Assembly: GCF_030936135.1 (NCBI RefSeq)
Contig: NC_082597.1
Location: 48,553,095 to 48,617,094 of the forward strand
DNA: 64,000 nt
Direction of reading: 5' to 3'
Source of the DNA: Gavia stellata
Taxonomy: Eukaryota; Chordata; Aves; Gaviiformes; Gaviidae
Under the pieces are notes generated by a model. It made no database searches and was not told where the DNA came from. It saw nothing but the letters and a program-made list of their open reading frames with translations. A program made the position numbers and the translations under genes. How positions within the stretch are numbered: the stretch's first letter is position 1; each line of letters opens with the position of its first letter. This document shows positions 1 to 64,000 of this stretch, in pieces.

Positions 1-547
1 TTGCACCACTGCGGCTCTTGCCTCTACCTGAAATTGTAAGGAAACTTTGTATTAAACTAGGCGAGACTCTACAGCTAGATTTTTACATTCATCCGCAGTA
101 GTTAATTGAGGACTTTAAATAGTGTCTTTGGATATAAAATTTCCCTGGTGGCAAATGAGAATTCGTACCTTTCCTTTTATGTAGTTGATTCTGCTGGTTT
201 TATCCCTCTGGAAACTCCAGGGCCACCCTATCCGTGGGCCAGGCTGGATGGACAACCCAACAAGCAGGCTGCAAAAAGGTTTAAACGATTCTAGTATCTC
301 AGGACTTATTTTCACGTCGTGTTAGTTTAAAGCAGCGGGGGGGGTCTGTCATGCAGCGAGTGTGTGAAAGCACAGAAATGCAATCTTTAGGGCCTCGCTG
401 CATGAAGTGTTGAATATCCTCAGTAGCCTTTGACTCCGCTCTGGGGCCCTAATGACAGAGACAACCAGGCAGAAGGGGATGAAGTAGTCTAACAGGGGAT
501 GCACCTGTGATCTGGAAAACAGGCATGTATTTTTATTACTTTCGTGG
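1..547. other. Spacer downstream of the gene, unit 1
   Basis: No exon, RNA gene or mobile element is recognised. Short open stretches here are not supported by splice sites. A G run (GGGGGGG near 338) is constant in the copies. It continues the AT-rich stretch from the right of the CpG island of the neighbouring unit (13,871-14,109). Confidence 0.5.
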
Positions 548-700
548 ACCTTGGTGCCTTTGAAGCTGTGGAAGGGAGCGGTAAGGTCTCCCCTCAGCCT
601 CCTTTTCTCCAGGCTAAAGAACCCCCGTTCCCTGAGCCCCAGCACGGCACAGCACAGCCTGCGCCTGCACAGGCTCGCTGTGTTGTGGATCGGTCACTCC
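548..700 (-). mobile_element. Old CR1 scrap, unit 1
   Basis: On the minus strand it reads [18 protein letters not shown], the usual CR1 ORF2 C-terminal motif, over a short stretch with no 3' tail. It is more decayed than the two other CR1 copies. It recurs at about 14,657, 28,802, 40,913 and 54,220. Confidence 0.65.
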
Positions 701-865
701 TCCATGCACAGGGCGCTGCCGGTTATGGGGTCGGGGGTGGGAATGGGAGAGAGGAAGATGCTTTGTTGATCTGAGGTGCAGAGTTTTCTGCAAATAACTT
801 CAAAGTTGAACGATGAGTTCAAAAAAGGCATACTTCATGCTTGTCAAGCCAACGTAGTCAAAGCT

Positions 866-2262
866 CACAGAATCACAGAATGATAGGGGTTGGGAGGGAC
901 CTCTGGAGATCATCTAGTCCAACCCCCCCGCCAGGGCAGGTTCACAGGTTCATTCCAGATTGCACAGGAATGCGTCCAGGTGAGTTCTGAATATCTCCAG
1001 AGAAGGAGACTCCACAACCTCTCTGGGCAGCTTGTGCCAGTGCTCTGCCACCCTCAAAGTAAAGAAGTGCCTCCTCATGTTTAGATGGAACTTCCTGTGA
1101 TGAAGTTTGTGCCCGTTACCTCTCGTCCTGTTGCTGGGCATCACGGAAAAAAGACTGGCCCCATCCTCCTGGCACCCACCCCTTAAGTATTTATCAGCAT
1201 TAATAAGATCCCCCCTCAGTCTTCTCTTCTCCAGACTAAAAAGACCCAAGTCCCTCAGCCTTTCCTCATAAGAAAGATGTTCCAGTCCCCTAATCATCTT
1301 CGCAGCCCTTTGCTGTACCCTCCCCAGCAGTTCCCTGTCCTTCTTGAACTGGGGAGCCCAGAACTGGACACAGTACTCCAGGTGCGGCCTCACCAGGGCA
1401 GGGCAGAGCAGAGTGGGAGGATAACCTCCTTCGGCCTGCTAGCCACACTCTTCTTGATGCACCCCAGGATGCCGTTGGCCTTCTTGGCCACAAGGGCACA
1501 TTGCTGGCTCATGGTCATCCCGTTGTCCCCCAGGACTCCCAGGTCCCTTTCCACAGAGCTGCTCTCCAGCAGGTCAGCCCCTGACCTGTACTGATGCATG
1601 GGGTTATTCCGCCCCAGGTGCAGTACCCTACGTTTGCCTTTGTTGAATTTCATGAGGTTCCTCTCTGCCCAACTCTCCAGCCCGTCCAGGTCACGCTGAA
1701 TGGCAGCGCAGCCTTCCGGTGTGTCAGCCACTCCTCCCAGTTTCCTGGCTCTTCCTTCTTGCCCTTTTTGAAGACTGGAGTGACATGGGCTTTCCTCCAG
1801 TCCTCAGGCACCTCACCTCACCTGTTCTCCAGGACCTTTCAGAGATGATGGAGAGTGGCCCAGCAATGACTTCTGCCAGCTCCCTCAGCGCTCGCGGGTG
1901 CATCCCATCAGGACCCACGGACTTGTGGGTGTCCAGTTTACTTAACGGGTCTCTAACTTGATCCTCCTCAACCAAGGGGAAGTCTTCCTTCTTCCACACT
2001 TTCTCTGTTACCTGCAAAGTCTGGGACTCCTGAGGGCTGGCCGGAGCAGTGAAGACTGAAGCCAAGAAGGCATTCAGTAACTCCGCCTTCTCTGCATCGT
2101 CCGTCACCACGGCACCTGTCTCATTCAACAGCGGGCCCACAATTTCTCTAGTTTTCCTTTTGCCTCCAATGCACTTGAAGTAACCCTTCCTGTTGACCTT
2201 GACATCCCTTGCCAGGTTTAATTCACAGGAGGCCTTGGCCTTCCTTGTTTCATCAGCTCAGT
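866..2262 (-). mobile_element. CR1 LINE (CR1-A), 5'-truncated and internally deleted, unit 1
   Basis: On the minus strand it reads the 3' half of CR1 ORF2. First comes an RT N-terminal part (VGPDGMHPRALRELAEVIAG, about 1,830-1,960). A jump near 1,735 then loses the catalytic core of the RT. The C-terminal part follows ([42 protein letters not shown]). It ends in the CR1 3' tail, CTATCATTCTGTGATTCTGTG at 866. Frame changes break it into three open stretches. It lies downstream of the gene's polyadenylation signals in the same orientation as the gene. Confidence 0.95.
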
Positions 2263-2329
2263 GGAATTTATTTTAACTGATGACAGTCCTCTTACAAGCA
2301 AGGGAAATAATGTCTCTAAAATATAATAA

Positions 2330-2584
2330 TACATCTTTGTTTTTATTAGCTACGTTTATTGTACCTTTATAATATACAAACAACTATTTTTAAACACAAA
2401 TTTCCATACAAACAACTACTTTTAAACACAAATTTCCATACAAACAACTACTTTTAAACACAAATTTACATTTTGGTCGGTTTCTAAACGTTAACAGTGT
2501 TCTTCCTCCCTCTTACTCGCTTCATCTCTTTCTCCTCTCTACGTAACCTTCTCCTTTTCTCCTCACTTCCATGTCTTCTCGGCT
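2330..2584 (-). CDS. Terminal exon with stop and 3' UTR, unit 1
   Basis: After an acceptor GACAACAG at 2585-2586, the frame from the previous exon gives 20 basic residues and a TGA at 2522-2524. Another frame of the same exon is open to 2483 (highly basic, ending RGRKNTVNV). The 3' UTR holds a 32-bp repeat present three times and two AATAAA signals. The acceptor pyrimidine tract is only moderate. The position at the end of all candidate exons and just before polyadenylation signals supports a real gene end. Confidence 0.55.
2342..2360 (-). terminator. Two polyadenylation signals, unit 1
   Basis: AATAAA occurs twice on the minus strand, at 2355-2360 and 2342-2347, separated by CGTAGCT. They follow the terminal exon and its 3' UTR repeat. 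The same pair is at 16451-16469, 30596-30614, 42017-42035, 56014-56032 and 63414-63432 in the other units. Confidence 0.7.
2376..2467 (-). repeat. 32-bp minisatellite in the 3' UTR, three copies
   Basis: CAAACAACTACTTTTAAACA with its following 12 bases is repeated three times, and the first copy has ATT in place of ACT. It lies within the transcribed 3' end just before the polyadenylation signals. Equivalent arrays with three copies are at 16485-16576, 30630-30721, 42051-42142, 56048-56139 and 63448-63539. Confidence 0.85.
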
Positions 2585-5500
2585 CTGTTGTCAAAATAGA
2601 TGTACAGAACATTTTGTGCATAATTTATCAGAGTAAAACTCTGTGCTCTTTCAGAAACATTTTAAGAGACACAAGATGGAGGTTCTAATCTCTGCTTTCA
2701 AGTCAGCTGTAAAATGTATTAATGGTCCTAAGGGCATCGTGTGCATGTTTCGTAGCCTGAGTCCCCTTACGAATTTGGACCTCGGCTGATCATCGTTCAG
2801 CTGTTGCAGATGCTTCCCGAGCAAGCAAGCAGAGAGAGAAATAGATCACACTCCTGTAGTCTCTACTGTGCTTTGTCCAGTGCCACAAGCCAAAACACGC
2901 TTCTTGTAGCTCCTCACTTTAAAGGCAGGTACAGAGTTTGCTTTCATAGCGGTAATACTGTGACAAATTAGATAGTCAGACAGGCAAAATTACGTGTCCG
3001 CAAACAAACGAAACCATTAACTGCTCTTTCAGACTACTCGGCGTTGCTTAGAATCTTGCGGGTTTTGGTTGGGCAAGTTTTCAGAGCCATTTCACGTTTT
3101 CTAGGTGGGGAGAGACATGTCACTTTTACTGACAAGACGGAATCGTAAAAATTTCTATCAAACAGTTACCTGAATGGTTGTTTGAAACTTAGAGAATGTT
3201 TTTGCTCGTGGATTTCTTTTCCTCCAAGTTGGTGCATTGTAAGATCCTGAAGTATATTTGTCTATAGAAAAAACATATACATTGTTTCTTAATATCAGGG
3301 GCAGTTTGAGGGAAGACTCCCTTAGCCTGATAACGTGAATTAAGTATCGCGTTAGCTGAAGTATCAATGAATGGACCAGGTGACTCACGCATCACCTCGG
3401 AAATACAAGTTAGGGTTAAATACAGACTCCCTCTCTGGCACTTTAAACATCATTTGTAACCTTGCAGCGTTTCCGTCAGGCTCGCAGGATCTTCCAATGA
3501 GGCGATTCTGCCACGGACATCCTTGCCTTGAACAAAGTGAATGTTCCTGTGTTGAAAATCTTCCCAAAGGCATCAATTGCTTTTAGATTAAACGAACCCA
3601 TAGTCCAATCTCCTGTTCTATCTCTGCTTGTGAAAGCACTAGATGCAAGGCAGTATGGTGTTTTTGTGCTAGGCAGTTGATTTTGCATTAGAGTATGCTG
3701 CCTAATGACTAACCATTTTCTGTAAAATCTGGTTCAAAGTCATTATTATTAACACTCTGGCTTTCTGTTAATTCCAGCTTAATTCCGTTAATTCACATTC
3801 TTAATTCCACAAGAAGCCTAACATCTTCAGTTTATACACAAGATGTAAGAATTACCGTAGTTTTCCCTTTGGGTCCAAACTCTTCTGTTTGTGTCAAGCT
3901 GATTCTTTTGTTTGGAGCATTTCCCACCATATGGCTCAGGTTCTGCTGAAAAGAAAGGTAGCGAAAATGGTAAAGGTCGTTCTTCTGAAAATTAGGAAAT
4001 ACGTAATAATTAAGTCCCTTTCACATTGGAATACTTGGATGCAGTTGGTCCTTTTTCCCAAGGTAGTGCCTCGTGTCTTTTCCCTTCAACAAATGTGTTC
4101 CTCTGCGCCACAGAGCAGTCACCTCCTACAGGAAAGGAGTCTCACAAAGTTACCTGTACTCAAGAGCACCCTGAGAAATGTGAACAGTGCACAGAGCCTG
4201 CTCTTCTTATAATTACATTAAGTTTTTAACTGAAATGAATACAAAAATGCAAAGAATACAGTGAAACCAAACAGCTGATTCATTAAGGCTCACAAAAAAT
4301 TAGAGACACAGTCCATTTAAAAAGCTTTAAATACAGAGGGGTATGAACGGAGGTTCAATTATGGAATTGTTTCTCAGTGGTAACTGTTTCTTACTGAGAG
4401 TAAAGAACACCTACAAGAAAGATACAATTTGTGCATAAAGGTGGGAGGAAAAGAAGTAGCATGTGAGATACATTTGTACTGTGCAGTACAGTTCTGGAGC
4501 TAGAAGATGCGTGCCGGTTTGCTCAAAGCTAGAGCAAGCATCCCTAACGTGGTACTGCATTATTTTGCATTGACAAACCAAGGGGAAAAAAGACGACTAC
4601 AACAATTACGGCTGTTTTTACCACTAATAAATGTTTATGAAGAAAAAGGATTAAATACCACTAAGTATTAAGTAAATGCAAGGAGAACGGGGCATTCTTC
4701 CACCTTGATGACATGATTCTATACTGAACTCAATGGGGCAAAACACTGTGTCTTCTTTAAGATCAAGCGAGTGTGTGCAGAGGGGTCAGCTCCCTTACAC
4801 AAGATGCAGGACTGCAGCTTTAATATTTCTCTGTATGATAACTGAAAAATACAAAGCCTTTTCATCTGAACTAGGGATAGTCTCACAAACATAACGGTTC
4901 TGAAAGCATTTTAACTTGTACGCATTTCTACGCTTGCGTTTTTGCATCATCCTACTCAAATCTGTTTTACATAATTATCAAGATTTTATCCCTAAGATTT
5001 ACACAAAATAAGCAACAGTATTGTTTTTTTAGTAAAAGTAGCAGGTCATATTTCTGCTTGGCAGTTTTTGATGACTGATCTACTGACTACTCTGGTGTCT
5101 TGTTATAGTAAGAACCTAACTCTCTGCTAAAATGGAATTACGTTATTACTTATTCACTAAAAAAACTACTACAGATTTTTTTCAGTCATGCCACTTGGCC
5201 AGGAATGAAGGAGAAGCATAATAAGGGAGGTAAATATTTATTAATTTGTATTTCTTTCACCTTAATTATGTTGGATAAAGCCCAACATTCGAAACAAAAT
5301 GGAACTCTCTCGTTCTTACCTTTCAGAAGACACTTAAAGGGGGTATTTATTTACTCTAAATTTAGTTCTAGAAAAGTTTGATGTGTCGCTACATTTCGTC
5401 ATCTGGACACCCAAGAGAGCCAGCAGAGAGCGTGGAGCACCTCTGGGGAAGTGACTCATCTCGCCTTTCGCTGGCGCTATCTTATGATGCAGTAAACAGC

Positions 5501-8500
5501 CCCATAGGAGTGCCTGTCTCAGTAAACAGCCCCATAAGAGTGCCTGTCTTTCTCCATTGACAACAGAGAGCCCAGATGAGAGACTTAAACTACATTCCTG
5601 ACCTTAGGATGGTTAAAATTAGACTACATAAATCTGGACCGTGAAGTAAAATTATATGAAAGACCTATGTTGTGTATCTCGGGCAAGTACACATAGGGTT
5701 AATAGCCCATTTCTACCTTTTCCATCTACAATCGATGCAGGTAGTCACCACGTGTGTGACACTACGTGTATCTATATCTATATATAGATGGGGAAAAATT
5801 AATGAAGTATTTTTACGCTCTTTGTAACATGCTCTCTTCTGTTGTCACTAAAGTAAGAAAGGGGGGAGGAGGGGCAAACTGTGTAATAGTTTCTCCCTGT
5901 AACAGTAAGTTTAAAAGCGGTAAACGTTGTCCAAGAAGATGAAAAGTACTTGCCTTTCTGCAAGTCTCGCTCGGTAGCTTCCAAGGGTGATAGCTCATTT
6001 TCCCGAGGTGAAGACACAGTTCTTCTTGATTGGTGTTTGTGAGGGTACCGAATCCTGTAATACTCTCCTAAACATTCACGAGGAGGGAAAAAAAAAACCA
6101 ACCAACGTTTACTATAGTGGCATCATTGCTGTTGAGGGAGGAGTGACTAATTTCATATTTACCAGATGTATAGCATATTTCCTTTATTGCTCTTTCCTCT
6201 TGAATGTCTTCAGCAGTCTTAGGCACCCGATTAGAAACATCTGTAGGAAATATTTTTAAAAGATTTTACTAGATAGCTATACAAAGACCTGCAACAATTC
6301 TTAATAATCAAAGACCATAGTGAATTTCATTTCGGTCACGATTTGGCTTTTTCTGACTGCAACCTCTGCTTCTGGACAGAAAAGTGATTCCTTAACAGTA
6401 GGTGTTTCCAAGTGCAATAAGAATTGCAGTTACAAGACATATTAAGAAGCAAATGCTTGTGGAATTAACATGATTCAGAAACATCTTCAGGACTCATTGT
6501 CAAAATAAGCCATCATTTACACCCAAAAGGAAATCTTCTGATTAAACCTGTCATCAGGGAGTGCTTGTGACGAAACCTCTGCCCAACGTTACTATCCTGT
6601 AATGTCTGCCGGCAGAGCTGGCATTACATCACTTTTTATATTGTTTAAATTAATGTGGCTTACTCAGCCTAAAACCGAGTTAGAAACCACGAACAGGCAG
6701 CCCTGCCCGCCAACCTGGAGGGCAGGGGGATGGTGCAAAGCAACTTGGGGCTGCCTGAGAACTAGCGGGGTAATTTGCGGAGTGAACGCGTGAGAGTAGG
6801 CCGTTCTCTCACTTTCCCTCGCTGGGAACGGGCAATTGGTTCCTTCCCTAGGATTCTCTCATCTCAAGGGAGATACAGTCACAGCTTAGAAGTACCTCCT
6901 AAACTTGTAAACTTGTAGTTTTGTCCCCAAATTTTGAGAAATTTTGAAGGGTCTTTGGTGTCCATCTGAATTGTGGATCACATTTTAAACTCTATTAAAT
7001 GAAAAAGAGCTATGTGAATTAGCTGGAAACTATTTCAAAAACTTGTCAACAACTCGCTTCTAAAAATGTAATGGTTATTATAATAAATCGGTTGCGAAGT
7101 ACATTGCAAGAGTCGAAAAAACCCATTCTAGTTCCTTGTAAAAGGAAGAAAAAAACTGTTTACAGTTCTCTTCCTCTTCATCGTCCTCTTCATCCTCTTC
7201 GCTGTTGACATTTATAATCAGTGGAGGGTGAATTGGTGGTAAAATATTCTCTCGCTTTCTGAGTGATTCTCGACGAAGGGTTGGATGTAGAATCCCTTCT
7301 TGGACACCCTCTTGCAATGGGACATCTGCAGAAAAGAACATCAAATTTATTTTTTTTAAGGAGGGAACTAGAACATGAAATCCAGGTTCAGACCAGCAGG
7401 TATGGGTTTGAAATCATTATGGCGTTGAAGGAATCATTAAATAGACTGATTGTGCCTTTTAGGCAACACCTTCTGCGGAGGTTGGCAAACGAGCATCTTC
7501 CAACTACAGAAAGTATGAGAAAACAGAGAGATACTTACAACATAGGGAAACGTGTGATTAGTAATACCTGGACTGAAGTGAGTAAATGAGTTTAGGACCC
7601 CACCTGTGAAAATATTTTAAACATGCTGAATAATAGGCAGGCCTGTATCACTCCCCATGGCATCGATTTTGAAGAATTTAGCAGTGCTAAGCACAGGATT
7701 ACCCATTTTTAGCTTGTAGACATTTTTCTCTATCAACATTTTCTGAATCACAGCTCTCTTTACAAGTACAGTACAAACTGTAGATTTTGAGAAAGAAGAT
7801 GAAGTTCCTGGACAGGCTGGATCGATGGGCTGAGGCCAACCGGATGAAGTTCAATAAGGCCAAGTGCCGGGTTCTACACTTTGGCCACAACAACCCCAGG
7901 CAACGCTACAGGCTTGGGGAGGAGTGGCTGGAAAGCTCCCCCGCAGAAAAGGACCTGGGGGTGTTGATCGACACCCGGCTGAATATGAGCCAGCAGTGTG
8001 CCCAGGTGGCCAAGAAGGCCAATGGCATCCTGGCTTGTATCAGAAATGGTGTGGCCAGCAGGAGCAGGGAGGTGATCATGCCTCCGTACTCGGCGCTGGT
8101 GAGGCCGCACCTCGAATACTGTGTTCAGTTTTGGGCCCCTCACTACAAGAAAGACATTGAGGTGCTGGAGCGTGTCCAGAGAAGGGCGACGAAGCTGGTG
8201 AGGGGTCTGGAACACAAGTCTTATGAGGAGCGGCTGAGGGAGCTGGGGTTGTTCAGTCTGGAGAAGAGGAGGCTGAGGGGAGGCCTTATCGCTCTCTACA
8301 ACTACCTGAAAGGAGGTTGCAGAGAGGTGGCTGTTGGTCTCTTCTCCCAAGTGACTAGTGACAGGACTAGAGGAAATGGCCTCAAGTTGCGCCAGGGGAG
8401 GTTCAGGCTAGATATTAGGAAAAAGTTCTTTACTGAGAGAGTAGTGAAACATTGGAATAGGCTGCCCAGGGAGGTGGTAGAGTCACCCTCCCTGGAGGTA

Positions 8501-10743
8501 TTCAAGGAGCGTGTGGATGTGGCATTGTGGGATGTAGCTTGATGGACATGGTGCTGTGTGGTGTTGGGTGGGTTGTGGCTTGTTGTTGTTGTGTGGCGTG
8601 GTTTTGTTTTTTTTTTTTTTTTTCTTGAGGTTGGACTCGATGATCTTACAGGTCTTTTCCAACCGTAGTGATTCTGTGATTCTGTGAAAATCATTTACGC
8701 TTAATTAGAAGGAAATCAGCAAAGATATTCTTTTCCTTAGGAATTTATATCTACCCACGACGTTTGCAGCAAAACTATTTCAGCACGGGGGTAGCATTTT
8801 CTGAGAGCCGGGAAATGCAACGGACTGAAAATTAAAATGATGAAAAATGGTGAGTCTATCTGTATTGTTCAAGCTGACCAATTTGCAACTCTAGGTACAA
8901 TCAGGATTCTGTGCATTATATTGAAAATACTGAGGTTGGATATGTTTCCCAGCTTTAAAGAAAGAAGATGAAGCATGGGCATTTTCTCTTATTCCGGTTG
9001 TTGTTATGCTTGTGAATTTGTACATATTGCAGTAACAAGGAAAAGGGTTGGGTCCATTTTCTCGTTCTGATTGTTGGACGCTGCTCTTTCTTACACAGGA
9101 TGCCCTTGTCCATAGTGCCTCTTGGGCGGCGTCTCTGACTCACACCACACCCAAAAGCGTGCCTACGTGGTGTGTACGACAGCACTAGCTGCCAGGGGCC
9201 GGTGCTGTGGATGTGGGAACTGTACTAAAAGCGGTATGGGCACTCATAGAAACAGCACTCAAGTTCTTGCCTTGGTCCTGGGTGGCTAGTTAGGCTCAAC
9301 ATGCCCAGATATGAGAGGCTGCCTTTTCCGGGGGGAATTTCCGGAACACGAGGTGTTTGCTTCTGACTCGAGGGCTTGCTGGACTTCTCTTACGACACCT
9401 GTCCACAGCTCTGGAGATAAGGCCCCTGAATCGGATGATATCTAGACAAGGGGTGTCTCACCCATGTACCATGTTGTGCTCTATCAACAGATACGGCTAC
9501 TAGGGGCCCTACCAACCTCCTCCCCCCACCGCACACACTACTTTTCCTTTCTCTTAAATGATTTCCTGCCTACTAACCATTTTCACTACTAGAGAGATTT
9601 ACTCTAGCAAATCCCCAAGTAAAGCAACGTTTTCACTCCATGGATCTTAGCAACCTAAACTGCCGTTTGTGACTTCATCTCTCATGTCACTCATAGGTAG
9701 GGAGATCCGTAACGTGACAGCTAAGCAAATCCATACGGCGACCCTAGACAATTGCCAATGCAATTCCTTTCTTGGCCTCGAACTTGCTGGGATAGCAAAT
9801 CAGACCTGATGATTGATTTGCCGTGGTACATTTCTTGACCTTAATATATATTACGTCAGCACTGGAAGTAAGCCCTGGAGGGGCATTTTCGTGTATTTAC
9901 TCACTCTAACGAACAAATTGTTGAGAAAATACTTTTACTCACTGTTACTAGGTGGCAAAAAAAGTCCATTTATATTACGAGGCTTGCTATGATGGAAGGC
10001 GCAATTGATCCTCGCACAGCCTGAGGGTTGTGTTTCCCAGAAGCAGGAGATGTTGCGGTACTTTTGCTGCAGGAGAAGACAGTTCTCAGACAGTGTAAAT
10101 ATCACCATGAAAATGGACTAAATGGATTAATACACGGTGCACTGCAGTGAGCAGAGGACTAAGATTTTGTGGGACCACGCTCTGATATTTTAGAACGTTT
10201 GAGGTTATCTTTACCCTGAACAGATACACTCAGGTTTATATCCTGGATGTGAACGACATCCCAGCTGAGAGCTGTAAATGCCAGGTTGCCGGTTATTTCT
10301 CAGTGAGTTTCCCCCAGTGCTGGAACGGATGCAATAACGAAGAGCCCTACAGCCAGCCCTGGATTTTCACCAGGTGGAATATAATTACTTCTTTGAAGAA
10401 CAAACCCATTTTGGAGGACGTTGTTTTAAATAACTGATTTTGCGCCATCTTTAACGTATGTGTTCCCTGAGTGCCTGAGCCTGAGTTCACCGGAGAAATT
10501 GTCCATAGTTTAGATGATCATTAGCTCTTCACACGACTTCCGACCATCAGAGCCTTGATCTACAGATGCTGCCATGACCCAGGCAGAGTGGCATATCAGC
10601 TTCTAAGTTTACATAACAAGCCTCCCTTTCAACACGGATATATCAAGAAAATCAAGGATACAAACCACTCTAAAATCTACAGCAGTTACCTGTGCGTAGG
10701 GGGCATGGAAATGGAAATAGCGGTCGTTCCCAACTGCGGCCAT
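2522..10743 (-). CDS. ZC3H11A-like CCCH zinc-finger gene, unit 1 copy (split gene, model)
   Basis: Six exons on the minus strand join in a single open frame of 585 bases (about 194 aa): 10690-10743, 9943-10066, 7164-7325, 3856-3945, 3170-3261 and 2522-2584. All junctions have GT and AG and the phases agree (0, 1, 1, 1, 0). ZC3H11A is a nuclear CCCH protein tied to the TREX mRNA-export complex. The finger exon and the acidic HPP exon resemble it clearly; the last three exons do not in this frame. The family length is about 810 aa, so this copy lacks most of the body. Fingers 1 and 2 are absent: exon 1 has lost their cysteines and exon 2 survives only as a relic that can be skipped in frame. 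The 90-bp and 92-bp exons are also open in a second frame, so the C-terminal half is uncertain. It may be a short derived protein or an expressed pseudogene. Confidence 0.6.
3170..3261 (-). CDS. 92-bp candidate exon, ZC3H11A-like gene, unit 1
   Basis: It has an acceptor with a T-rich tract (GTTTTTTCTATAG) and a donor CAG|GTAACT. In the model frame it encodes [20 protein letters not shown] and a short basic tail; another frame is also open. I do not recognise the sequence. Unit 4 has Arg to Gln in the RNPRAK segment, and unit 5 has a silent ACA to ACG change. It lies in the 3' part of the gene, about 590 bases from the terminal exon. Confidence 0.5.
3856..3945 (-). CDS. 90-bp candidate exon, ZC3H11A-like gene, unit 1
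   Basis: It has a strong acceptor (CTTTCTTTTCAG) and donor (ACG|GTAATT) on the minus strand, with 90 bases between. In the frame of the acidic exon it reads [15 protein letters not shown] and onward. In phase 0 it reads [16 protein letters not shown], which faintly resembles the VRLSLTERLGKRK segment of human ZC3H11A. The second reading may be the ancestral one, and the first may result from loss of intermediate exons. The splice sites are kept in units 1-5; unit 4 has a substitution near 43,435 that changes a codon. Confidence 0.5.
5490..5549. repeat. 30-bp tandem duplication in the intron
   Basis: CAGTAAACAGCCCCATAGGA and its next 10 bases are repeated once directly, with one base different (ATAGGAG / ATAAGAG). 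Also at 19599-19658, 44991-45050 and 59162-59221; absent from unit 3 with the surrounding ~521 bp. Confidence 0.9.
5954..6067 (-). other. Candidate cryptic exon with GC donor, unit 1
   Basis: The stretch has 114 bases with a long pyrimidine tract and TTTAG acceptor on the minus strand, and a GAAAG|GCAAGT end, which fits the consensus of the rare GC-AG intron class. Two frames are open across it. If placed after the acidic exon in the main model, the junction makes TGA, so it would end the protein. In phase 0 it is open and joins in frame with the 90-bp exon. It could be an alternative exon, a remnant of the missing ZC3H11A body, or chance. Confidence 0.35.
7164..7325 (-). CDS. Acidic exon with HPPLIIN motif, ZC3H11A-like, unit 1
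   Basis: The exon has 162 bases after an acceptor TTCTTTTCTGCAG. It starts with two bases, which fits the one base left by the finger exon. It encodes [20 protein letters not shown] followed by an unbroken acidic run. Human ZC3H11A has ENVPSPTHPPVVIN followed by a D-rich run. The donor used here is T|GTAAAC, which is weak. The frame also stays open past it to a stop near 7,078, so the exon may originally have been longer, as the human protein continues QFSEEG after the acidic run. Units 4 and 5 carry a cluster of amino-acid changes in the segment before ENILPP. Confidence 0.7.
7811..8686 (+). mobile_element. CR1 LINE (CR1-B), 3' fragment with open C-terminal ORF2, unit 1
   Basis: This is an 876-bp 5'-truncated CR1 of another subfamily on the plus strand. 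It has an unbroken reading frame to 8542 ([61 protein letters not shown]), a T-rich stretch near 8,607-8,623, then GGTTGGACTCGATGATCTTA and the ATTCTGTG tail. It inserted in the intron between the finger and acidic exons, antisense to the gene. No reverse-transcriptase core is present, so it cannot move by itself. Confidence 0.95.
8687..9942. other. Intron between finger-3 exon and CR1-B, unit 1
   Basis: No coding or repeat content is recognised. The unit 5 truncation point corresponds to about 8,758 here. Confidence 0.5.
9943..10066 (-). CDS. CCCH zinc-finger exon (finger 3 of ZC3H11A), unit 1
   Basis: The exon has 124 bases between a strong acceptor (CTTCTCCTGCAG) and a consensus donor (A|GTGAGT). 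It encodes 41 residues plus one base. The core [19 protein letters not shown] has the C-x8-C-x4-C-x3-H zinc ligands complete and is followed by NGLFLPPSN. Human ZC3H11A has CYWENQPTGCQKLNCAFHH followed by DGLFLPPSK. This is the best evidence for the family. All ligands are kept in units 1-4. The one difference noticed is CAA to CAG (Gln, silent) in unit 4. CCCH fingers of this type bind single-stranded RNA, so RNA binding is the likely residual role. Confidence 0.87.
10545..10632 (-). pseudogene. Probable relic of ZC3H11A exon 2 (fingers 1-2), unit 1
   Basis: Between the start exon and the finger-3 exon, the minus strand carries a stretch that can be lined up loosely with the human exon encoding the rest of finger 1 and finger 2. 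It has AAAGGGAGGC (KG), then GAAGCTG (EA), then ATATGCCACTCTG (VCTL) and TGTAGATCAAGGC (CRFR). It has stops in every frame I tried and no clean splice sites. Because the neighbouring exons both meet at phase 0, leaving this piece out keeps the frame. The alignment is by eye and weak; it could be chance. Confidence 0.35.
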
Positions 10744-12214: not shown

Positions 12215-13293
12215 TGTACTGGGTTTGCGTGGCCGGGTTTTGGTAGCGGGGGGGGGGGGCTGGAGGGGCGGCCTCTGTGAGAAGCTGCTGGAGAGCTTCT
12301 ATCCCATGTCCGATAGAGCCAATGCCAGCCGGCTCCAAGGCGGACCCGCCGCCGGCCAAGGCTGAGCCCCTCAGCGACGGTGGTAGTGCCTCTGCGATAA
12401 CATGTTTAAGAAGGGGGAGAAACTGCTGGGCAACAGCAGCCGGAGAGGGGAGCGAGAATATGTGAGAGGAACAGCTCTGCAGACGCCAAGCTCAGTGAAG
12501 GAGGAGGGGGAGGAGGTGCTCCAGCGCCGCAGCAGAGATTCCCCTGCAGCCCGTGATGAAGACCATGGTGAGGCAGGCTGTCCCCCCGCAGCCCATGGAG
12601 GTCCACGGTGGAGCAGGTATCCACCTGCAGCCCGTGGAGGACCCCACGCCAGAGCAGGTGGATGCCCGAAGGAGGCTGCGACCCCGTGGGAAGCCCGTGC
12701 TGGAGCAGGCTCCCGGCAGGACCTGCGGCCCCGTGGAGAGAGGAGCCCACGCTGGAGCAGGTTTGCTGGCAGGACTTGTGACCCCACGGGGGACTCATGC
12801 TGGAGCAGTTCGTGAAGAACTGCAGCCCGTGGGAAGGGCCCACGCTGGAGAAGTTCGTGGAGCACTGTCTCCCGTGGGAGGGACCCCAGGCCGGAGCCGG
12901 GGAAGAGTGTGAGGAGGAAGGAGCGGCAGAGACAAGGTGTGATGAACTGAGCGCAACCCCCATTCCCCGTCCCCCTGCGCCGCTCGGCGGGGGGGAGGCA
13001 GAGGAAAATCAGGAGTGAAGCTGAGCCCGGGAAGAAGAGAGGGGTGGGGGGAAGGTGTTCCGAGATTTCGTTTTTCTCGCTCATAACCCTACTCGGATGT
13101 GCTTGGTAACAGATTCATTTCCCCGAGCCGAGTGTGTTTTGCCGGTGACGGTAACGGGTGCGTGATCTCTCCCTGTCCTTATCTCGACCCAGGAGCCTTT
13201 CGTTGTGTTTTCCCGCCCCTGCCCGGCTGAGGAGGGGAGCGATAGAGCGGCCTCGGTGGGCACCTGGCGTCCAGCCAGGGTCAAGGCAGCACA
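12215..13293 (+). mobile_element. Solo LTR of an avian endogenous retrovirus (fossil), unit 1
   Basis: It begins TGTACTGGGTTTGCGTGG and ends GGGTCAAGGCAGCACA, so it has the TG...CA ends of an LTR, and is about 1.08 kb. The internal text (repeated GCTGGAGCAG and CCCGTGG units, then GCCTTTCGTTGTGTTTTCCC) is one I recognise from many bird LTRs. I cannot fix the family; ERVL or ERVK are the candidates. No gag, pol or env is attached, so it is a solo LTR. A target-site duplication is not convincing. It lies in the first intron of the ZC3H11A-like gene, next to the CpG island. It was there before the array expanded. Confidence 0.75.
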
Positions 13294-13399
13294 CGTTCAA
13301 AGGCTGTACAGCGAGGCAGAGAGCCTGGGTAACGGCAGGAGGCAGCTGTCCCGGCGGAGGCAGAATGAGACCCAGCGAGGTCCCCACAGCCTGGGGCCA

Positions 13400-13870
13400 G
13401 GGCATCCATGACCCAGGCCCGGGCGTGCGGCACCCCGGGAAGCAGAAAAGGCAGCCTGAGGAAAGGCTGCCAGGCCAGGGGAACGGCACCGCCAACGGCG
13501 AAGGGCCGCCGCCCCGCGGCCGCCTCAGCCCGGCGCCGAGCACAGCCGGGGCGGGGCGGGGCGGGGCGGGACGGCCCTGCCAGGGCGGGGGCCGCCGCTG
13601 TGGGAAGCGGAGGTGCCCCAGGCCCGCGGCCGGGCTGGGCGGCGGAGAGCGGCGGAGCCACCGCCCCGCTGAGGGCTGCTGGAGAGAGGCGCCCGCGCCC
13701 CGCCCCGCCCCGCCCCGCCCCGCCGTCCCCGCCGCCCAGGTGCGTCGCGGCGCTCCTGGCGGGCGGGAGGCGACGGACTCCATTTCCCGACGCGCCCCGC
13801 GGCCGCGGGGCGGCGCAGGCGCAGTTCCGGCTCGGCGCTGGGCCGGCGGCGGGAGCCTTGGGCTGGAAGC
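13400..13870 (-). promoter_or_regulatory. CpG-island promoter, unit 1
   Basis: This is a sharply GC-rich, CpG-dense block in AT-rich surroundings. It has GGGGCGGGGC runs (Sp1-type sites, about 13,550-13,570 and, as CCCCG repeats, 13,694-13,727). A GGCGCAGGCGCAGTTCCGG stretch at 13,812-13,830 resembles an NRF1 site beside an ETS core. Position and orientation fit the promoter and non-coding first exon of the minus-strand gene. A plus-strand donor (CAG|GTGCGT at about 13,738-13,745) is also present, so bidirectional transcription is possible. No TATA box was seen. Confidence 0.65.
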
Positions 13871-27443: not shown

Positions 27444-27549
27444 CGTTCAAAGGCTGTACAGCGAGGCAGAGAGCCTGGGTAACGGCAGGAGGCAGCTGTC
27501 CCGGCGGAGGCAGAATGAGACCCAGCGAGGTCCCCACAGCCTGGGGCCA

Positions 27550-39552: not shown

Positions 39553-39659
39553 CGTTCAAAGGCTGTACAGCGAGGCAGAGAGCCTGGGTAACGGCAGGAG
39601 GCAGCTGTCCCGGCGGAGGCAGAATGAGACCCAGCGAGGTCCCCACAGCCTGGGGCCAG

Positions 39660-51781: not shown

Positions 51782-52864
51782 TGTACTGGGTTTGCGTGGC
51801 CGGGTTTTGGTAGCGGGGGGGGGGCTGGAGGGGCGGCCTCTGTGAGAAGCTGCTGGAGAGCTTCTATCCCATGTCCGATAGAGCCAATGCCAGCCGGCTC
51901 CAAGGCGGACCCGCCGCCGGCCAAGGCTGAGCCCCTCAGCGACGGTGGTAGTGCCTCTGCGATAACATGTTTAAGAAGGGGGAGAAACTGCTGGGCAACA
52001 GCAGCCGGAGAGGGGAGCGAGAATATGTGAGAGGAACAGCTCTGCAGACGCCAAGCTCAGTGAAGGAGGAGGGGGAGGAGGTGCTCCAGCGCCGCAGCAG
52101 AGATTCCCCTGCAGCCCGTGATGAAGACCATGGTGAGGCAGGCTGTCCCCCCGCAGCCCATGGAGGTCCACGGTGGAGCAGGTATCCACCTGCAGCCCGT
52201 GGAGGACCCCACGCCAGAGCAGGTGGATGCCCGAAGGAGGCTGCGACCCCGTGGGAAGCCCGTGCTGGAGCAGGCTCCCGGCAGGACCTGCGGCCCCGTG
52301 GAGAGAGGAGCCCACGCTGGAGCAGGTTTGCTGGCAGGACTTGTGACCCCACGGGGGACTCATGCTGGAGCAGTTCGTGAAGAACTGCAGCCCGTGGGAA
52401 GGGCCCACGCTGGAGAAGTTCGTGGAGCACTGTCTCCCGTGGGAGGGACCCCAGGCCGGAGCCGGGGAAGAGTGTGAGGAGGAAGGAGCGGCAGAGACAA
52501 GGTGTGATGAACTGAGCGCAACCCCCATTCCCCGTCCCCCTGCGCCGCTCGGCGGGGGGGAGGCAGAGGAAAATCAGGAGTGAAGCTGAGCCCGGGAAGA
52601 AGAGAGGGGTGGGGGGAAGGTGTTCCGAGATTTCGTTTTTCTCGCTCATAACCCTACTCGGATGTGCTTGGTAACAGATTCATTTCCCCGAGCCGAGTGT
52701 GTTTTGCCGGTGACGGTAACGGGTGCGTGATCTCTCCCTGTCCTTATCTCGACCCAGGAGCCTTTCGTTGTGTTTTCCCGCCCCTGCCCCTGCCCGGCTG
52801 AGGAGGGGAGCGATAGAGCGGCCTCGGTGGGCACCTGGCGTCCAGCCAGGGTCAAGGCAGCACA
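51782..52864 (+). mobile_element. Solo LTR (fossil), unit 4
   Basis: It is full-length and at the same position as in units 1 and 2, with the same ends. Units 5 and 6 have no LTR in this window because that segment is missing. Confidence 0.75.
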
Positions 52865-52969
52865 CGTTCAAAGGCTGTACAGCGAGGCAGAGAGCCTGGG
52901 TAACGGCAGGAGGCAGCTGTCCCGGCGGAGGCAGAATGAGACCCAGCGAGGTCCCCACAGCCTGGGGCC

Positions 52970-53433
52970 AGGGCATCCATGCCCCAGGCCCGGGCGTGCG
53001 GCACCCCGGGAAGCAGAAAAGGCAGCCTGAGGAAAGGCTGCCAGGCCAGGGGAACGGCACCGCCAACGGCGAAGGGCCGCGGCCACCTCAGCCCGGCGCC
53101 GAGCACAGCCGGGGCGGGGCGGGGCGGGGCGGGGCGGCCCTGCCAGGGCGGGGGCCGCCGCTGTGGGAAGCGGAGGTGCCCCAGGCCCGCGGCCGGGCTG
53201 GGCGGCGGAGCGCGGCGGAGCCACCGCCCCGCTGAGGGCTGCTGGAGAGAGGCGCCCGCGCCCCGCCCCGCCCCGCCCCGCCCCGCCGTCCCCGCCGCCC
53301 AGGTGCGTCGCGGCGCTCCTGGCGGGCGGGAGGCGACGGACTCCATTTCCCGACGCGCCCCGCGGCCGCGGGGCGGCGCAGGCGCAGTTCCGGCTCGGCG
53401 CTGGGCCGGCGGCGGGAGCCTTGGGCTGGAAGC
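52970..53433 (-). promoter_or_regulatory. CpG-island promoter, unit 4
   Basis: It is the same block with the unit-3-like GGGCCGCGGCCACCTC variant and the unit-2-like doubled CCCTGC. One substitution lies in GGCGGAGCGCGGCGG. Confidence 0.6.
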
Positions 53434-54537
53434 CGTGTAGTTGATATGCAAAGTCGTCTCTAAGTGCTAAGTTCTTCTAGATTTCACTCTCTAAAATACA
53501 TGAAGTATGGTTTAAGTGAACATGCCAATCGAGGAACTGTTCCAGTTTTAAAGTTTCCTATCCGTAAAGCTTCCTTGCACACTAGAACTTGTATAATAAA
53601 GGGCGTCTGATTTCCGTGGGGAGGATTAAAAGAAGCATGGAGGTTGGGAGGAAACGAGAAGACTGTGGTTCGTTGCACCACTGCGGCTCTTGCCTCTACC
53701 TGAAATTGTAAGGAAACTTTGTATTAAACTAGGCGAGACTCTACAGCTAGATTTTTACATTCATCCGCAGTAGTTAATTGAGGACTTTAAATAGTGTCTT
53801 TGGATATAAAATTTCCCTGGTGGCAAATGAGAATTCGTACCTTTCCTTTTATGTAGTTGATTCTGCTGGTTTTATCCCTCTGGAAACTCCAGGGCCACCC
53901 TATCCGTGGGCCAGGCTGGATGGACAACCCAACAAGCAGGCTGCAAAAAGGTTTAAACGATTCTAGTATCTCAGGACTTATTTTCACGTCGTGTTAGTTT
54001 AAAGCAGCGGGGGGGGTCTGTCATGCAGCGAGTGTGTGAAAGCACAGAAATGCAATCTTTAGGGCCTCGCTGCATGAAGTGTTGAATATCCTCAGTAGCC
54101 TTTGACTCCGCTCTGGGGCCCTAATGACAGAGACAACCAGGCAGAAGGGGATGAAGTAGTCTAACAGGGGATGCACCTGTGATCTGGAAAACAGGCATGT
54201 ATTTTTATTACTTTCGTGGACCTTGGTGCCTTTGAAGCTGTGGAAGGGAGCGGTAAGGTCTCCCCTCAGCCTCCTTTTCTCCAGGCTAAAGAACCCCCGT
54301 TCCCTGAGCCCCAGCACGGCACAGCACAGCCTGCGCCTGCACAGGCTCGCTGTGTTGTGGATCGGTCACTCCTCCATGCACAGGGCGCTGCCGGTTATGG
54401 GGTCGGGGGTGGGAATGGGAGAGAGGAAGATGCTTTGTTGATCTGAGGTGCAGAGGTTTCTGCAAATAACTTCAAAGTTGAACGATGAGTTCAAAAAAGG
54501 CATACTTCATGCTTGTCAAGCCAACGTAGTCAAAGCT

Positions 54538-56193: not shown

Positions 56194-59100
56194 TCATCTC
56201 TTTCTCCTCTCTACGTAACCTTCTCCTTTTCTCCTCACTTCCATGTCTTCTCGGCTCTGTTGTCAAAATAGATGTACAGAACATTTTGTGCATAATTTAT
56301 CAGAGTAAAACTCTGTGCTCTTTCAGAAACATTTTAAGAGACACAAGATGGAGGTTCTAATCTCTGCTTTCAAGTCAGCTGTAAAATGTATTAATGGTCC
56401 TAAGGGCATCGTGTGCATGTTTCGTAGCCTGAGTCCCCTTACGAATTTGGACCTCGGCTGATCATCGTTCAGCTGTTGCAGATGCTTCCCGAGCAAGCAA
56501 GCAGAGAGAGAAATAGATCACACTCCTGTAGTCTCTACTGTGCTTTGTCCAGTGCCACAAGCCAAAACACGCTTCTTGTAGCTCCTCACTTTAAAGGCAG
56601 GTACAGAGTTTGCTTTCATAGCGGTAATACTGTGACAAATTAGATAGTCAGACAGGCAAAATTACATGTCCGCAAACAAACAAAACCATTAACTGCTCTT
56701 TCAGACTACTCGGCGTTGCTTAGAATCTTGCGGGTTTTGGTTGGGCAAGTTTTCAGAGCCATTTCACGTTTTCTAGGTGGGGAGAGACATGTCACTTTTA
56801 CTGACAAGACGGAATCGTAAAAATTTCTATCAAACAGTTACCTGAATGGTTGTTTGAAACTTAGAGAACGTTTTTGCTCGTGGATTTCTTTTCCTCCAAG
56901 TTGGTGCATTGTAAGATCCTGAAGTATATTTGTCTATAGAAAAAACATATACATTGTTTCTTAATATCAGGGGCAGTTTGAGGGAAGACTCCCTTAGCCT
57001 GATAACGTGAATTAAGTATCGCGTTAGCTGAAGTATCAATGAATGGTCCAGGTGACTCACGCATCACCTCGGAAATACAAGTTAGGGTTAAATACAGACT
57101 CCCTCTCTGGCACTTTAAACATCATTTGTAACCTTGCAGCGTTTCCGTCAGGCTCGCAGGATCTTCCAATGAGGCGATTCTGCCACGGACATCCTTGCCT
57201 TGAACAAAGTGAATGTTCCTGTGTTGAAAATCTTCCCAAAGGCATCAATTGCTTTTAGATTAAACGAACCCATAGTCCAATCTCCTGTTCTATCTCTGCT
57301 TGTGAAAGCACTAGATGCAAGGCAGTATGGTGTTTTTGTGCTAGGCAGTTGATTTTGCATCAGAGTATGCTGCCTAATGACTAACCATTTTCTGTAAAAT
57401 CTGGTTCAACGTCATTGTTATTAACACTCTGGCTTTCTGTTAATTCCAGCTTAATTCCATTAATTCACATTCTTAATTCCACAAGAAGCCTAAAATCTTC
57501 AGTTTATACACAAGATGTAAGAATTACCGTAGTTTTCCCTTTGGGTCCAAACTCTTCTGTTTGTGTCAAGCTGATTCTTTTGTTTGGAGCATTTCCCACC
57601 ATATGGCTCAGGTTCTGCTGAAAAGAAAGGTAGCGAAAATGGTAAAGGTCGTTCTTCTGAAAATTAGGAAATACGTAATAATTAAGTCCCTTTCACATTG
57701 GAATACTTGGATGCAATTGGTCCTTTTTCCCAAGGTAGTGCCTCGTGTCTTTTCCCTTCAACAAATGTGTTCCTCTGCGCCACAGAGCAGTCACCTCCTA
57801 CAGGAAAGGAGTCTCACAAAGTTACCTGTACTCAAGAGCACCCTGAGAAATGTGAACAGTGCACAGAGCCTGCTCTTCTTATAATTACATTAAGTTTTTA
57901 ACTGAAATGAATACAAAAATGCAAAGAATACAGTGAAACCAAACAGCTGATTCATTAAGGCTCACAAAAAATTAGAGACACAGTCCATTTAAAAAGCTTT
58001 AAATACAGAGGGGTATGAACGGAGGTTCAATTATGGAATTGTTTCTCAGTGGTAACTGTTTCTTACTGAGAGTAAAGAACACCTACAAGAAAGATACAAT
58101 TTGTGCATAAAGGTGGGAGGAAAAGAAGTAGCATGTGAGATACATTTGTACTGTGCAATACAGTTCTGGAGCTAGAAGATGCGTGCCAGTTTGCTCAAAG
58201 CTAGAGCAAGCATCCCTAACGTGGTACTGCATTATTTTGCATTGACAAACCAAGGGGAAAAAAGACGACTACAACAATTACGGCTGTTTTTACCACTAAT
58301 AAATGTTTATGAAGAAAAAGGATTAAATACCACTAAGTATTAAGTACATGCAAGGAGAACGGGGCATTCTTCCACCTTGATGACATGATTCTATACTGAA
58401 CTCAATGGGGCAAAACACTGTGTCTTCTTTAAGATCAAGCGAGTGTGTGCAGAGGGGTCAGCTCCCTTACACAAGATGCAGGACTGCAGCTTTAATATTT
58501 CTCTGTATGATAACTGAAAAATACAAAGCCTTTTCATCTGAACTAGGGATAGTCTCACAAACATAACGGTTCTGAAAGCATTTTAACTTGTACGCATTTC
58601 TACGCTTGCGTTTTTGCATCATCCTACTCAAATCTGTTTTACATAATTATCAAGATTTTATCCCTAAGATTTACACAAAATAAGCAACAGTATTGTTTTT
58701 TTAGTAAAAGTAGCAGGTCATATTTCTGCTTGGCAGTTTTTGATGACTGATCTACTGACTACTCTGGTGTCTTGTTATAGTAAGAACCTAACTCTCTGCT
58801 AAAATGGAATTACGTTATTACTTATTCACTAAAAAAACTACTACAGATTTTTTTCAGTCATGCCACTTGGCCAGGAATGAAGGAGAAGCATAATAAGGGA
58901 GGTAAATATTTATTAATTTGTATTTCTTTCACCTTAATTATGTTGGATAAAGCCCAACATTTGAAACAAAATGGAACTCTCTCGTTCTTACCTTTCAGAA
59001 AACACTTAAAGGGGATATTTATTTACTCTAAATTTAGTTCTAGAAAAGTTTGATGTGTCGCTACATTTCGTCATCTGGACACCCAAGAGAGCCAGCAGAG

Positions 59101-60865
59101 AGCGTGGAGCACCTCTGGGGAAGTGACTCATCTCGCCTTTCGCTGGCGCTATCTTATGATGCAGTAAACAGCCCCATAGGAGTGCCTGTCTCAGTAAACA
59201 GCCCCATAAGAGTGCCTGTCTTTCTCCATTGACAACAGAGAGCCCAGATGAGAGACTTAAACTACATTCCTGACCTTAGGATGGTTAAAATTAGACTACA
59301 TAAATCTGGACCGTGAAGTAAAATTATACGAAAGACCTACGCTCTTATACGAAAGACCTACGCTCTTTGTAACATGCTCTCTTCTGTTGTCACTAAATTA
59401 AGAAAGGGGGGAGGAGGGGCAAACTGTGTAATAGTTTCTCCCTGTAACAGTAAGTTTAAAAGCGGTAAACGTTGTCCAAGATGAAAAGTACTTGCCTTTC
59501 TGCAAGTCTCGCTCGGTAGCTTCCAAGGGTGATAGCTCATTTTCCCGAGGTGAAGACACAGTTCTTCTTGATTGGTGTTTGTGAGGGTACCGAATCCTGT
59601 AATACTCTCCTAAACATTCACGAGGAGGGAAAAAAAAAAAAAAAAAACAACGTTTACTATAGTGGCATCATTGCTGTTGAGGGAGGAGTGACTAATTTCA
59701 GATTTACCAGATGTATAGCATATTTCCTTTATTGCTCTTTCCTCTTGAATGTCTTCAGCAGTCTTAGGCACCCGATTAGAAACATCTGTAGGAAATATTT
59801 TTAAAAGATTTTACTAGATAGCTATACAAAGACCTGCAACAATTCTTAATAATCAAAGACCATAGTGAATTTCGTTTCGGTCACGATTTGTTTTTTTCTG
59901 ACTGCAACCTCTGCTTCTGGACAGAAAAGTGATTCCTTAACAGTAGGTGTTTCCAAGTGCAATAAGAATTGCAGTTACAAGACATATTAAGAAGCAAATG
60001 CTTGTGGATTTAACATGATTCAGAAACATCTTCAGGACTCATTTGCAAAATAAGCCGTCATTTACACCCAAAAGGAAATCTTCTGATTAAACCTGTCATC
60101 AGGGAGTGCTTGTGACGAAACCTCTGCCCAACTATCCTGTAATGTCTGCCGGCAGAGCTGGCATTACATCACTTTTTACATTGTTTAAATTAATGTGGCT
60201 TACTCAGCCTAAAACCGAGTTAGAAACCACGAACAGGCAGCCCTGCCCGCCAACCTGGAGGGCAGGGGGATGGTGCAAAGCAGCTTGGGGCTGCCTGAGA
60301 ACTAGCGCGGTAATTTGCGGAGTGAACGCGTGAGAGTAGGCCGTTCTCTCACTTTCCCTCGCTGGGAACGGGCAATTGGTTCCTTCCCTAGGAATCTCTC
60401 ATCTCAAGGGAGATACAGTCACAGCTTAGAAGTACCTCCTAAGCTTGTAAACTTGTAGTTTTGTCCCCAAATTTTGAGAAATTTTGAAGGGTCTTTAGTG
60501 TCCATCTGAATTGTGGATCACATTTTAAACTCTATTAAATGAAAAAGAGCTATGTGAATTAGCTGGAAACTATTTCAAAAACTTGTCAACAACTCGCTTC
60601 TAAAAATGTAATGGTTATTATAATAAATCGGTTGCGAAGTACATTGCAAGAGTCGAAAAAACCCATTCTAGTTCCTTGTAAAAGGAAGAAAAAAACTGTT
60701 TACAGTTCTCTTCCTCTTCATCGTCCTCTTCATCCTCTTCGCTGTTGACATTTATAATCAGTGGAGGGTGAATTGGTGGTAAAATATTCTGTCGCTTTCT
60801 GAGTGATACTTGACGAAGGGTTGGATGTAGAATCCCTTCTTGGACACCCTCTTGCAATGGGACAT
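56194..60865 (-). pseudogene. ZC3H11A-like gene, unit 5 copy, lacking its 5' end
   Basis: The acidic exon (60704-60865), 90-bp exon (57528-57617), 92-bp exon (56842-56933) and terminal exon (56194-56256) remain. The promoter, start exon and zinc-finger exon are gone because the unit breaks at 62,298. The copy cannot make the CCCH protein unless a far upstream promoter reads through. It carries acidic-exon changes partly shared with unit 4. Confidence 0.75.
59325..59366. repeat. 21-bp duplication at a deletion site, unit 5
   Basis: TTATACGAAAGACCTACGCTC occurs twice in tandem where about 147 bases of the other units are missing, joining GAAAGACCTA to ACGCTCTTTG. It looks like one deletion with local template copying. 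Confidence 0.85.
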
Positions 60866-62223: not shown

Positions 62224-62298
62224 AAAATCATTTACGCTTAATTAGAAGGAAATCAGCAAAGATATTCTTTTCCTTAGGAATTTATATCTACCCACGAC

Positions 62299-63334
62299 CT
62301 CTGGAGATCATCTAGACCCAAGTCCCTCAGCCTTTCCTCATAAGAAAGATGTTCCAGTCCCCTAATCATCTTCGCAGCCCTTTGCTGTACCCTCCCCAGC
62401 AGTTCCCTGTCCTTCTTGAACTGGGGAGCCCAGAACTGGACACAGTACTCCAGGTGCGGCCTCACCAGGGCAGGGCAGAGCAGAGTGGGAGGATAACCTC
62501 CTTCGGCCTGCTAGCCACACTCTTCTTGATGCACCCCAGGATGCCGTTGGCCTTCTTGGCCACAAGGGCACATTGCTGGCTCATGGTCATCCCGTTGTCC
62601 CCCAGGACTCCCAGGTCCCTTTCCACAGAGCTGCTCTCCAGCAGGTCAGCCCCTGACCTGTACTGATGCATGGGGTTATTCCGCCCCAGGTGCAGTACCC
62701 TACGTTTGCCTTTGTTGAATTTCATGAGGTTCCTCTCTGCCCAACTCTCCAGCCCGTCCAGGTCACGCTGAATGGCAGCGCAGCCTTCCGGTGTGTCAGC
62801 CACTCCTCCCAGTTTCCTGCCTCTTCCTTCTTGCCCTTTTTGAAGACTGGAGTGACATGGGCTTTCCTCCAGTCCTCAGGCACCTCACCTCACCTGTTCT
62901 CCAGGACCTTTCAGAGATGATGGAGAGTGGCCCAGCAATGACTTCTGCCAGCTCCCTCAGCGCTCGCGGGTGCATCCCATCAGGACCCATGGACTTGTGG
63001 GTGTCCGGTTTACTTAACTGGTCTCTAACTTGATCCTCCTCAACCAAGGGGAAGTCTTCCTTCTTCCAGACTTTCTCTGTTACCTGCAAAGTCTGGGACT
63101 CCTGAGGGCTGGCCGGAGCAGTGAAGACTGAAGCCAAGAAGGCATTCAGTAACTCTGCCTTCTCTGCATCGTCTGTCACCACGGCACCTGTCTCATTCAA
63201 CAGCGGGCCCACATTTTCTCTAGTTTTCCTTTTGCCTCCAATGCACTTGAAGTAACCCTTCCTGTTGACCTTGACATCCCTTGCCAGGTTTAATTCACAG
63301 GAGGCCTTGGCCTTCCTCGTTTCATCAGCTCAGC
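62299..63334 (-). mobile_element. CR1 LINE (CR1-A), rearranged, unit 6
   Basis: It starts with a ~17-base piece of the CR1 3' tail region (CTCTGGAGATCATCTAG) and then jumps about 330 bases to GACCCAAGTCCC. From there it follows the normal element. The missing part is most of the 3' half of the element. Confidence 0.9.
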
Positions 63335-63593
63335 GGAATTTATTTGAACTGATGACAGTCCTCTTACAAGCAAGGGAAATAATGTCTCTAAAATATAATA
63401 ATACATCTTTGTTTTTATTAGCTACGTTTATTGTACCTTTATAATATACAAACAACTATTTTTAAACACAAATTTCCATACAAACAACTACTTTTAAACA
63501 CAAATTTCCATACAAACAACTACTTTTAAACACAAATTTACATTTTGGTCAGTTTCTAAACGTTAACAGTGTTCTTCCTCCCTCTTACTCGCT

Positions 63594-63656
63594 TCATCTC
63601 TTTCTCCTCTCTACGTAACCTTCTCCTTTTCTCCTCACTTCCATGTCTTCTCGGCT
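63594..63656 (-). pseudogene. ZC3H11A-like terminal exon, unit 6 (window edge)
   Basis: Only the terminal exon, 3' UTR repeat and polyadenylation signals of this copy lie inside the window. The rest of the gene would continue past 64,000, so whether this copy is whole cannot be told. Confidence 0.5.
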
Positions 63657-64000
63657 CTGTTGTCAAAATAGATGTACAGAACATTTTGTGCATAATTTAT
63701 CAGAGTAAAACTCTGTGCTCTTTCAGAAACATTTTAAGAGACACAAGATGGAGGTTCTAATCTCTGCTTTCAAGTCAGCTGTAAAATGTATTAATGGTCC
63801 TAAGGGCATCGTGTGCATGTTTCGTAGCCTGAGTCCCCTTACAAATTTGGACCTCGGCTGATCATCGTTCAGCTGTTGCAGATGCTTCCCGAGCAAGCAA
63901 GCAGAGAGAGAAATAGATCACACTCCTGTAGTCTCTACTGTGCTTTGTCCAGTGCCACAAGCCAAAACACGCTTCTTGTAGCTCCTCACTTTAAAGGCAG

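Follow-up and report, generated by a model that had tools for sequence, protein, structure and literature searches.

The 64-kb stretch of the genome of the red-throated loon (Gavia stellata) considered here (C4:48553095-48617094, hereafter the window, on a contig, C4, of 85,811,070 bases) carries head-to-tail copies of a gene with a CCCH zinc-finger exon, which raises the question of which gene has been multiplied, where in the genome this took place, and what the copies might do for the bird. An initial annotation had taken the gene for ZC3H11A and had suggested a place on the W, the Z or a germline-restricted chromosome. Our analyses point to another gene and another place: the window belongs to an 18-copy array of C12orf50 beside RLIG1, 12 copies of which have an intact predicted frame, and we give a probability of roughly 0.55 to the reading that unequal crossing-over probably multiplied these copies and held them alike, and that they likely raise the dose of a predicted mRNA-binding protein, perhaps in germ cells.

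Identity and position of the amplified gene

Human ZC3H11A and C12orf50 sequences were used as probes. The C12orf50 probe matched the window at residues 4-45 (71% identity), 33-97, 97-130, 123-174, 198-233, and 376-400, and these six segments are collinear, following one another in order on the minus strand from the finger to the C-terminus, whereas the ZC3H11A probe gave just two clear matches, at residues 57-100 (52%) and within 133-172, for its third finger and an acidic stretch. The CCCH exon is thus closer to C12orf50 (71%) than to the third finger exon of ZC3H11A (52%). In Pfam, the spliced model matched DUF5571 (183 bits, cut-off 25) and zf-CCCH_3 (52.8 bits, cut-off 31), and DUF5571 with a single zf-CCCH_3 finger is the combination of the C12orf50 family. 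A protein search returned 472 matches; nearly all of the 120 listed, from birds and other reptiles, are named C12orf50 homolog, and the exons of bird homologues map onto those of the window gene. The public Gavia stellata C12orf50 homolog (P0002) maps on gene A (Table 1) and shares with it, in exon 6 (E6; exons are numbered E1 to E9), the variant GPT for GPI, present in that copy alone of the 18. No second loon protein appears in the list of 120 homologues, and P0002 forms a cluster of one member.

The loon ZC3H11A gene is separate and lies on contig C30, where probe residues 1-518 were found in order within the 10 kb examined, with all three fingers. The array gene has neither the three CCCH fingers nor the long C-terminal region of ZC3H11A; it lacks two of the fingers, and what it shares with that protein is the third-finger counterpart, the acidic stretch, and a helix motif of the KTxEEI type. 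The identification as ZC3H11A was therefore ruled out, both by the exon comparison and by the separate gene on C30. Judged by its exons and predicted domains, the array gene is C12orf50, which is related to ZC3H11A and has a single finger.

At the right edge of the array, RLIG1 (C12orf29) lies on the plus strand in seven segments (C4:48691055-48700303). It starts at a CpG island that it shares with the first array gene, and is followed by a CEP290-like stretch. GHR, a Z-linked gene in chicken, is found in the loon on C44, a different contig from that of the array. As with the collinear exons and the pairing of zf-CCCH_3 with DUF5571, a RLIG1/C12orf29 neighbour is something that loon C12orf50 has in common with C12orf50 of other vertebrates, and in chicken the two genes are adjacent, at about 42.8 Mb on chromosome 1 (GGA1), according to PMC9498448. 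Since RLIG1 adjoins the array as in chicken and a different contig carries GHR, we conclude that the gene expanded in place, at its ancestral position, and that the array is no amplicon of the Z, the W or a germline-restricted chromosome. The sex-linked or germline-restricted placement was rejected on these two grounds, and the array showed no sign of such a location, W and germline-restricted sequence not having been searched separately.

Structure of the array

Self-BLAST of the window placed the beginnings of head-to-tail copies at positions 1, 14110, 28255, 40366, and 53673. The first four units measure 14109, 14145, 12111, and 13307 bases (12.1-14.1 kb), and units are about 98.5-99.9% identical across long blocks. 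There are four instances of the CCCH exon, five of exons 3-8, and six of exon 9, which amounts to four complete copies, one without the first two exons, and one of which the window contains the last exon alone. The tandem array of a CCCH gene in a bird, with four complete and two partial units of 12-14 kb, was thus correctly recognised in the initial annotation, and so were the polyadenylation signals of each unit, in a region present six times in the window. Its description of a CpG island and a CCCH exon in every unit is accurate for the four complete copies (each with an island 5' of it, GC content 0.66-0.67, observed/expected CpG ratio 0.82) and fails for the fifth (about 56.2-60.9 kb). 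This fifth copy, gene E, has lost the island and exons 1-2 because of a deletion with its junction at about 62298/62314.

The array runs past both window edges, and unit homology extends over C4:48489732-48693915 (about 204 kb). It comprises 18 recognisable gene copies, 12 complete and six truncated, and the CCCH exon is present in 12 copies, all on one contig; with such near-identical tandem copies, whole or partial, the locus resembles an ampliconic gene family. The same deletion junction and filler as in gene E were seen six times in the array, and therefore the promoterless 7.4-kb form has itself been multiplied. A gap of 200 N (C4:48626817-48627016) is flanked by near-identical promoterless 7.4-kb units and abutted by a truncated copy (g7), and given this gap the true copy number may differ from 18. 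When a duck protein was searched against the whole loon genome, 81 of the 82 matches (expect value E <= 0.001) fell in the C4 array and one in ZC3H11A on C30; no C12orf50 outside the array was detected in this search, which scored only the best candidates.

Every window unit opens with a relic of RLIG1 exon 3 (near 226, 14335, 28480, 40591, and 53898), 12 such relics occur across the array stretch, and none of those in the window encodes the whole of RLIG1. The relic that was tested is 94.9% identical to the RLIG1 gene over 394 bases of intron 2 and 84.7% over 111 bases of exon 3. Since the units are more similar to one another than to this source, the first duplication likely predates their present homogeneity, which may reflect unequal exchange or conversion.

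LINE-like (long interspersed nuclear element) frames were also observed at 950-2257 (minus) and 7784-8542 (plus), with copies, in opposite orientation and about 73-74% alike. They resemble reverse transcriptases of CR1-type elements; a Pfam search gave no match for the two frames. The unit of gene C lacks the counterpart of the second frame, and, relative to the gene A unit, is without the LINE-like insert and two further stretches.

Table 1. Positions of array features in the window (g numbers denote copies in the whole array)
Feature	Position	Strand	Remark
C12orf50 gene A (g13)	2522..10743	-	start codon to stop; by exon matches, splice sites and 258-codon frame
Gene A E1	10743-10690	-	
Gene A E2	10066-9943	-	CCCH finger
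Gene A E3	7325-7164	-	
Gene A E4	6240-6163	-	
Gene A E5	6067-5954	-	GC donor
Gene A E6	4125-4016	-	GG at donor position; skipped in model
Gene A E7	3945-3856	-	
Gene A E8	3261-3170	-	
Gene A E9	2584-2522	-	
C12orf50 gene B (g12)	16631..24852	-	complete; model protein as gene A
C12orf50 gene C (g11)	30776..37595	-	complete; model protein as gene A
C12orf50 gene D (g10)	42197..50238	-	complete; 6 residues unlike gene A
Gene E (g9)	56194..60865	-	truncated, exons 3-9 only; no CpG island
Gene F (g8)	63594..63656	-	exon 9 alone in window; truncated (exons 3-9) beyond it too
CpG island, gene A	12781..14040	.	copy of shared C12orf50/RLIG1 island, by match to island beside RLIG1
CpG island, gene B	26941..28180	.	
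CpG island, gene C	39041..40300	.	
CpG island, gene D	52361..53600	.	
Deletion junction with short filler	62298..62314	.	site where gene E lost its CpG island and exons 1-2
Stretch with two AATAAA signals	2335..2365	-	3' of gene A; 6 copies in window
RLIG1 relic	13906..14410	+	intron 2 and part of exon 3, at unit boundary

Coding capacity and possible function

With E6 skipped, all 12 complete copies encode 258 codons and a stop codon, with AG/GT splice sites throughout except for the GC donor after E5. At the donor position of E6, all five window copies have GG, and comparison with the duck reading frame suggests that this GG stands where a GT donor formerly was. Joining E6 to E7 breaks the frame and was dropped, and the working model therefore skips E6. 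Across the array, E6 translates alike in 17 of the 18 copies and is frame-shifted in g7. An alternative frame for the last exon was also dropped, since bird homologues end in the SQEDMEVNRKGE frame. P0002 departs from this model in its junctions at E3, E6, and E8 and in an additional exon near 6965-6897. Three internal exons of other birds (exD, exK, and exG) gave no match better than E 0.28 in a 250-kb stretch in which the positive control was found 22 times, and duck residues 222-317 were without a match in the loon genome search. The loon gene thus differs from C12orf50 of other birds in lacking these exons and in its GG at the E6 donor position; some bird homologues likewise lack some of the three.

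The predicted structure is mostly of low confidence (mean predicted local distance difference test score, pLDDT, 48; predicted template modelling score, pTM, 0.22), with short strands at residues 26-55, in the finger, and one confident helix at residues 144-160, which begins within the KTxEEI-type motif, placed in E4. The pattern KT..[DE][IL]..[EK][RK], chosen after the sequences had been inspected, occurs three times in ZC3H11A (at about residues 215, 359, and 472 of the human protein), once in human C12orf50, and in 85 of the 120 listed homologues, with chance matches in 27 and 8 of 10,000 shuffles. Both proteins might use this motif to dock mRNA export factors. Fingers one and three of ZC3H11A preferentially mediate PABPN1 binding, mutation of finger one impairs binding most, and THO proteins bind without need of the fingers (PMC10371797), while ZC3H11A joins the transcription-export complex (TREX) upon ATP binding by UAP56 (PMC10789772). 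Retention of the third-finger counterpart and of one KTxEEI-type helix suggests that C12orf50 likely serves mRNA processing or export as a shortened adaptor of the ZC3H11A type, and the array products might then act in a TREX-like manner. Human C12orf50 is among the genes differentially expressed between male-infertility groups (PMC8875138), which fits a reproductive role.

Explanations for the expansion and copies in other birds

In the reading that we prefer, the first duplication would have fused the interior of RLIG1 to DNA lying 3' of C12orf50, and a joint in that place would explain the promoter island and the RLIG1 relic of every full unit. The units, the promoterless 7.4-kb form included, would then have been multiplied by unequal exchange, unequal crossing-over would have kept the copies alike, and more copies would raise the dose of the predicted mRNA-handling protein, perhaps in the germline. 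Among the 12 complete copies, variable sites number 10 of 777 in coding sequence versus 137 of 5450 in ungapped intron columns (Fisher p = 0.032), by which coding constraint is supported weakly at best.

Several observations weigh against this reading. The model requires E6 to be skipped, whereas P0002 includes E6 with other junctions. All five of the promoterless copies in which E3 is present are open too, so intact frames were rejected as proof of selection and may reflect only the youth of the copies. The ten variable coding sites comprise seven nonsynonymous and three synonymous ones. C12orf50 has no counterpart of ZC3H11A finger one. We take mouse 1700017N19Rik to be the equivalent of C12orf50. 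The mouse gene is assigned to a subset of Leydig cells, not to germ cells, in a review (PMC10628492), which fits a germ-cell role less well. As a separate observation, E3 of genes D (46826-46665) and E (60865-60704) differs from that of gene A at four and three positions, within seven codons, and every difference changes an amino acid.

The strongest alternative, possible though in our view less probable, is a neutral expansion in which function is confined to one or two copies, all others being young duplicates that are not under selection and were generated by recombination between repeats. The openness of the promoterless copies and the multiplication of their unit would be expected under it, and so would the site counts given above, the loss of three internal exons and of the E6 donor, and the single loon protein among the 120 listed homologues. 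It accounts less readily for the frames and splice sites kept in all 12 full copies, the CpG-side promoter sequence present in most units, coding variation at about half the level of intron variation, and the distinct copies listed for several other birds. We consider it improbable that one or a few real copies were duplicated by the handling of haplotypes or repeats during assembly: the gap and the near-identical units around it make the exact count unsure, but the units have private insertions, deletions, lengths, and substitutions, and the array is continuous with unique flanks, with RLIG1 at one side. An amplification of ZC3H11A itself on a sex or germline-restricted chromosome, suggested by the similarity of the CCCH exon to the third finger exon and by the zf-CCCH_3 match, is very improbable given the better fit of C12orf50, the ZC3H11A gene on C30, and the position beside RLIG1 on a contig other than that of GHR. 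The loon array is like the avian ampliconic families of sex-linked or germline-restricted sequence in that its tandem copies are near-identical and mostly have a promoter island each; its place is what sets it apart.

The amplification of C12orf50 may have parallels elsewhere. In a rapidly built tree with 86 rows, 82 of them from the 120 listed proteins and four from the 12 complete loon copies, the loon copies and P0002 form one clade with support of 100, and pigeons, storks, owls, cranes, parrots, and shorebirds have several branches per species or among close kin. Among 17 species sets picked by eye from the listed proteins for having more than one row, 13 contain two or more cores that are at least three residues apart; no two such cores were found in Aptenodytes, Opisthocomus, Anser, or Anas. 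Some of these multiple proteins may be alleles, isoforms or assembly errors; on the protein sequences, C12orf50 amplification looks recurrent in birds. Cranes, pigeons, storks, owls, parrots, and gulls would thus resemble the loon in having several distinct C12orf50 proteins per species, with the difference that the loon copies form their own clade and are known as an in-place array, and those of other birds are known from listed proteins alone. In the kittiwake (Rissa) and the yellow-legged gull (Larus), C12orf50 proteins come from contigs of about 219-224 Mb and about 94.8 Mb and fall in two clades of the tree, rows P0004, P0061, and P0053 versus P0008, P0051, and P0038 being the two contig-size sets; gulls possibly have a second C12orf50 locus. 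A bolder proposal, which we hold to be unlikely but worth stating, is that amplification has struck C12orf50 repeatedly and independently across Neoaves, making the gene a hot spot where conflict in the bird germline would drive the dosage of a one-finger ZC3H11A-like mRNA adaptor, with the 18 loon copies beside RLIG1 as one instance.

In the literature, searched mostly by title and seen in part, we found no account of C12orf50 amplification in birds; titles on ZC3H11A in birds included none on amplification and none on chicken copy number, and on testis-specific tandem amplification in birds only work on the Drosophila Y turned up. PMC9498448 reports one C12orf50 locus in chicken, as against 18 copies, complete or truncated, in the loon assembly. 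A gene of unclear function with one reported locus in chicken has thus become a large array in the loon, and several distinct proteins represent it in other bird orders. With one loon protein among the 120 listed of 472 homologues, it seems that arrays of this kind can escape automatic annotation. Should the copies be expressed in germ cells, they would offer a lead on the function of C12orf50 and a naturally replicated case, off the sex chromosomes, for asking why germline mRNA-handling genes amplify.

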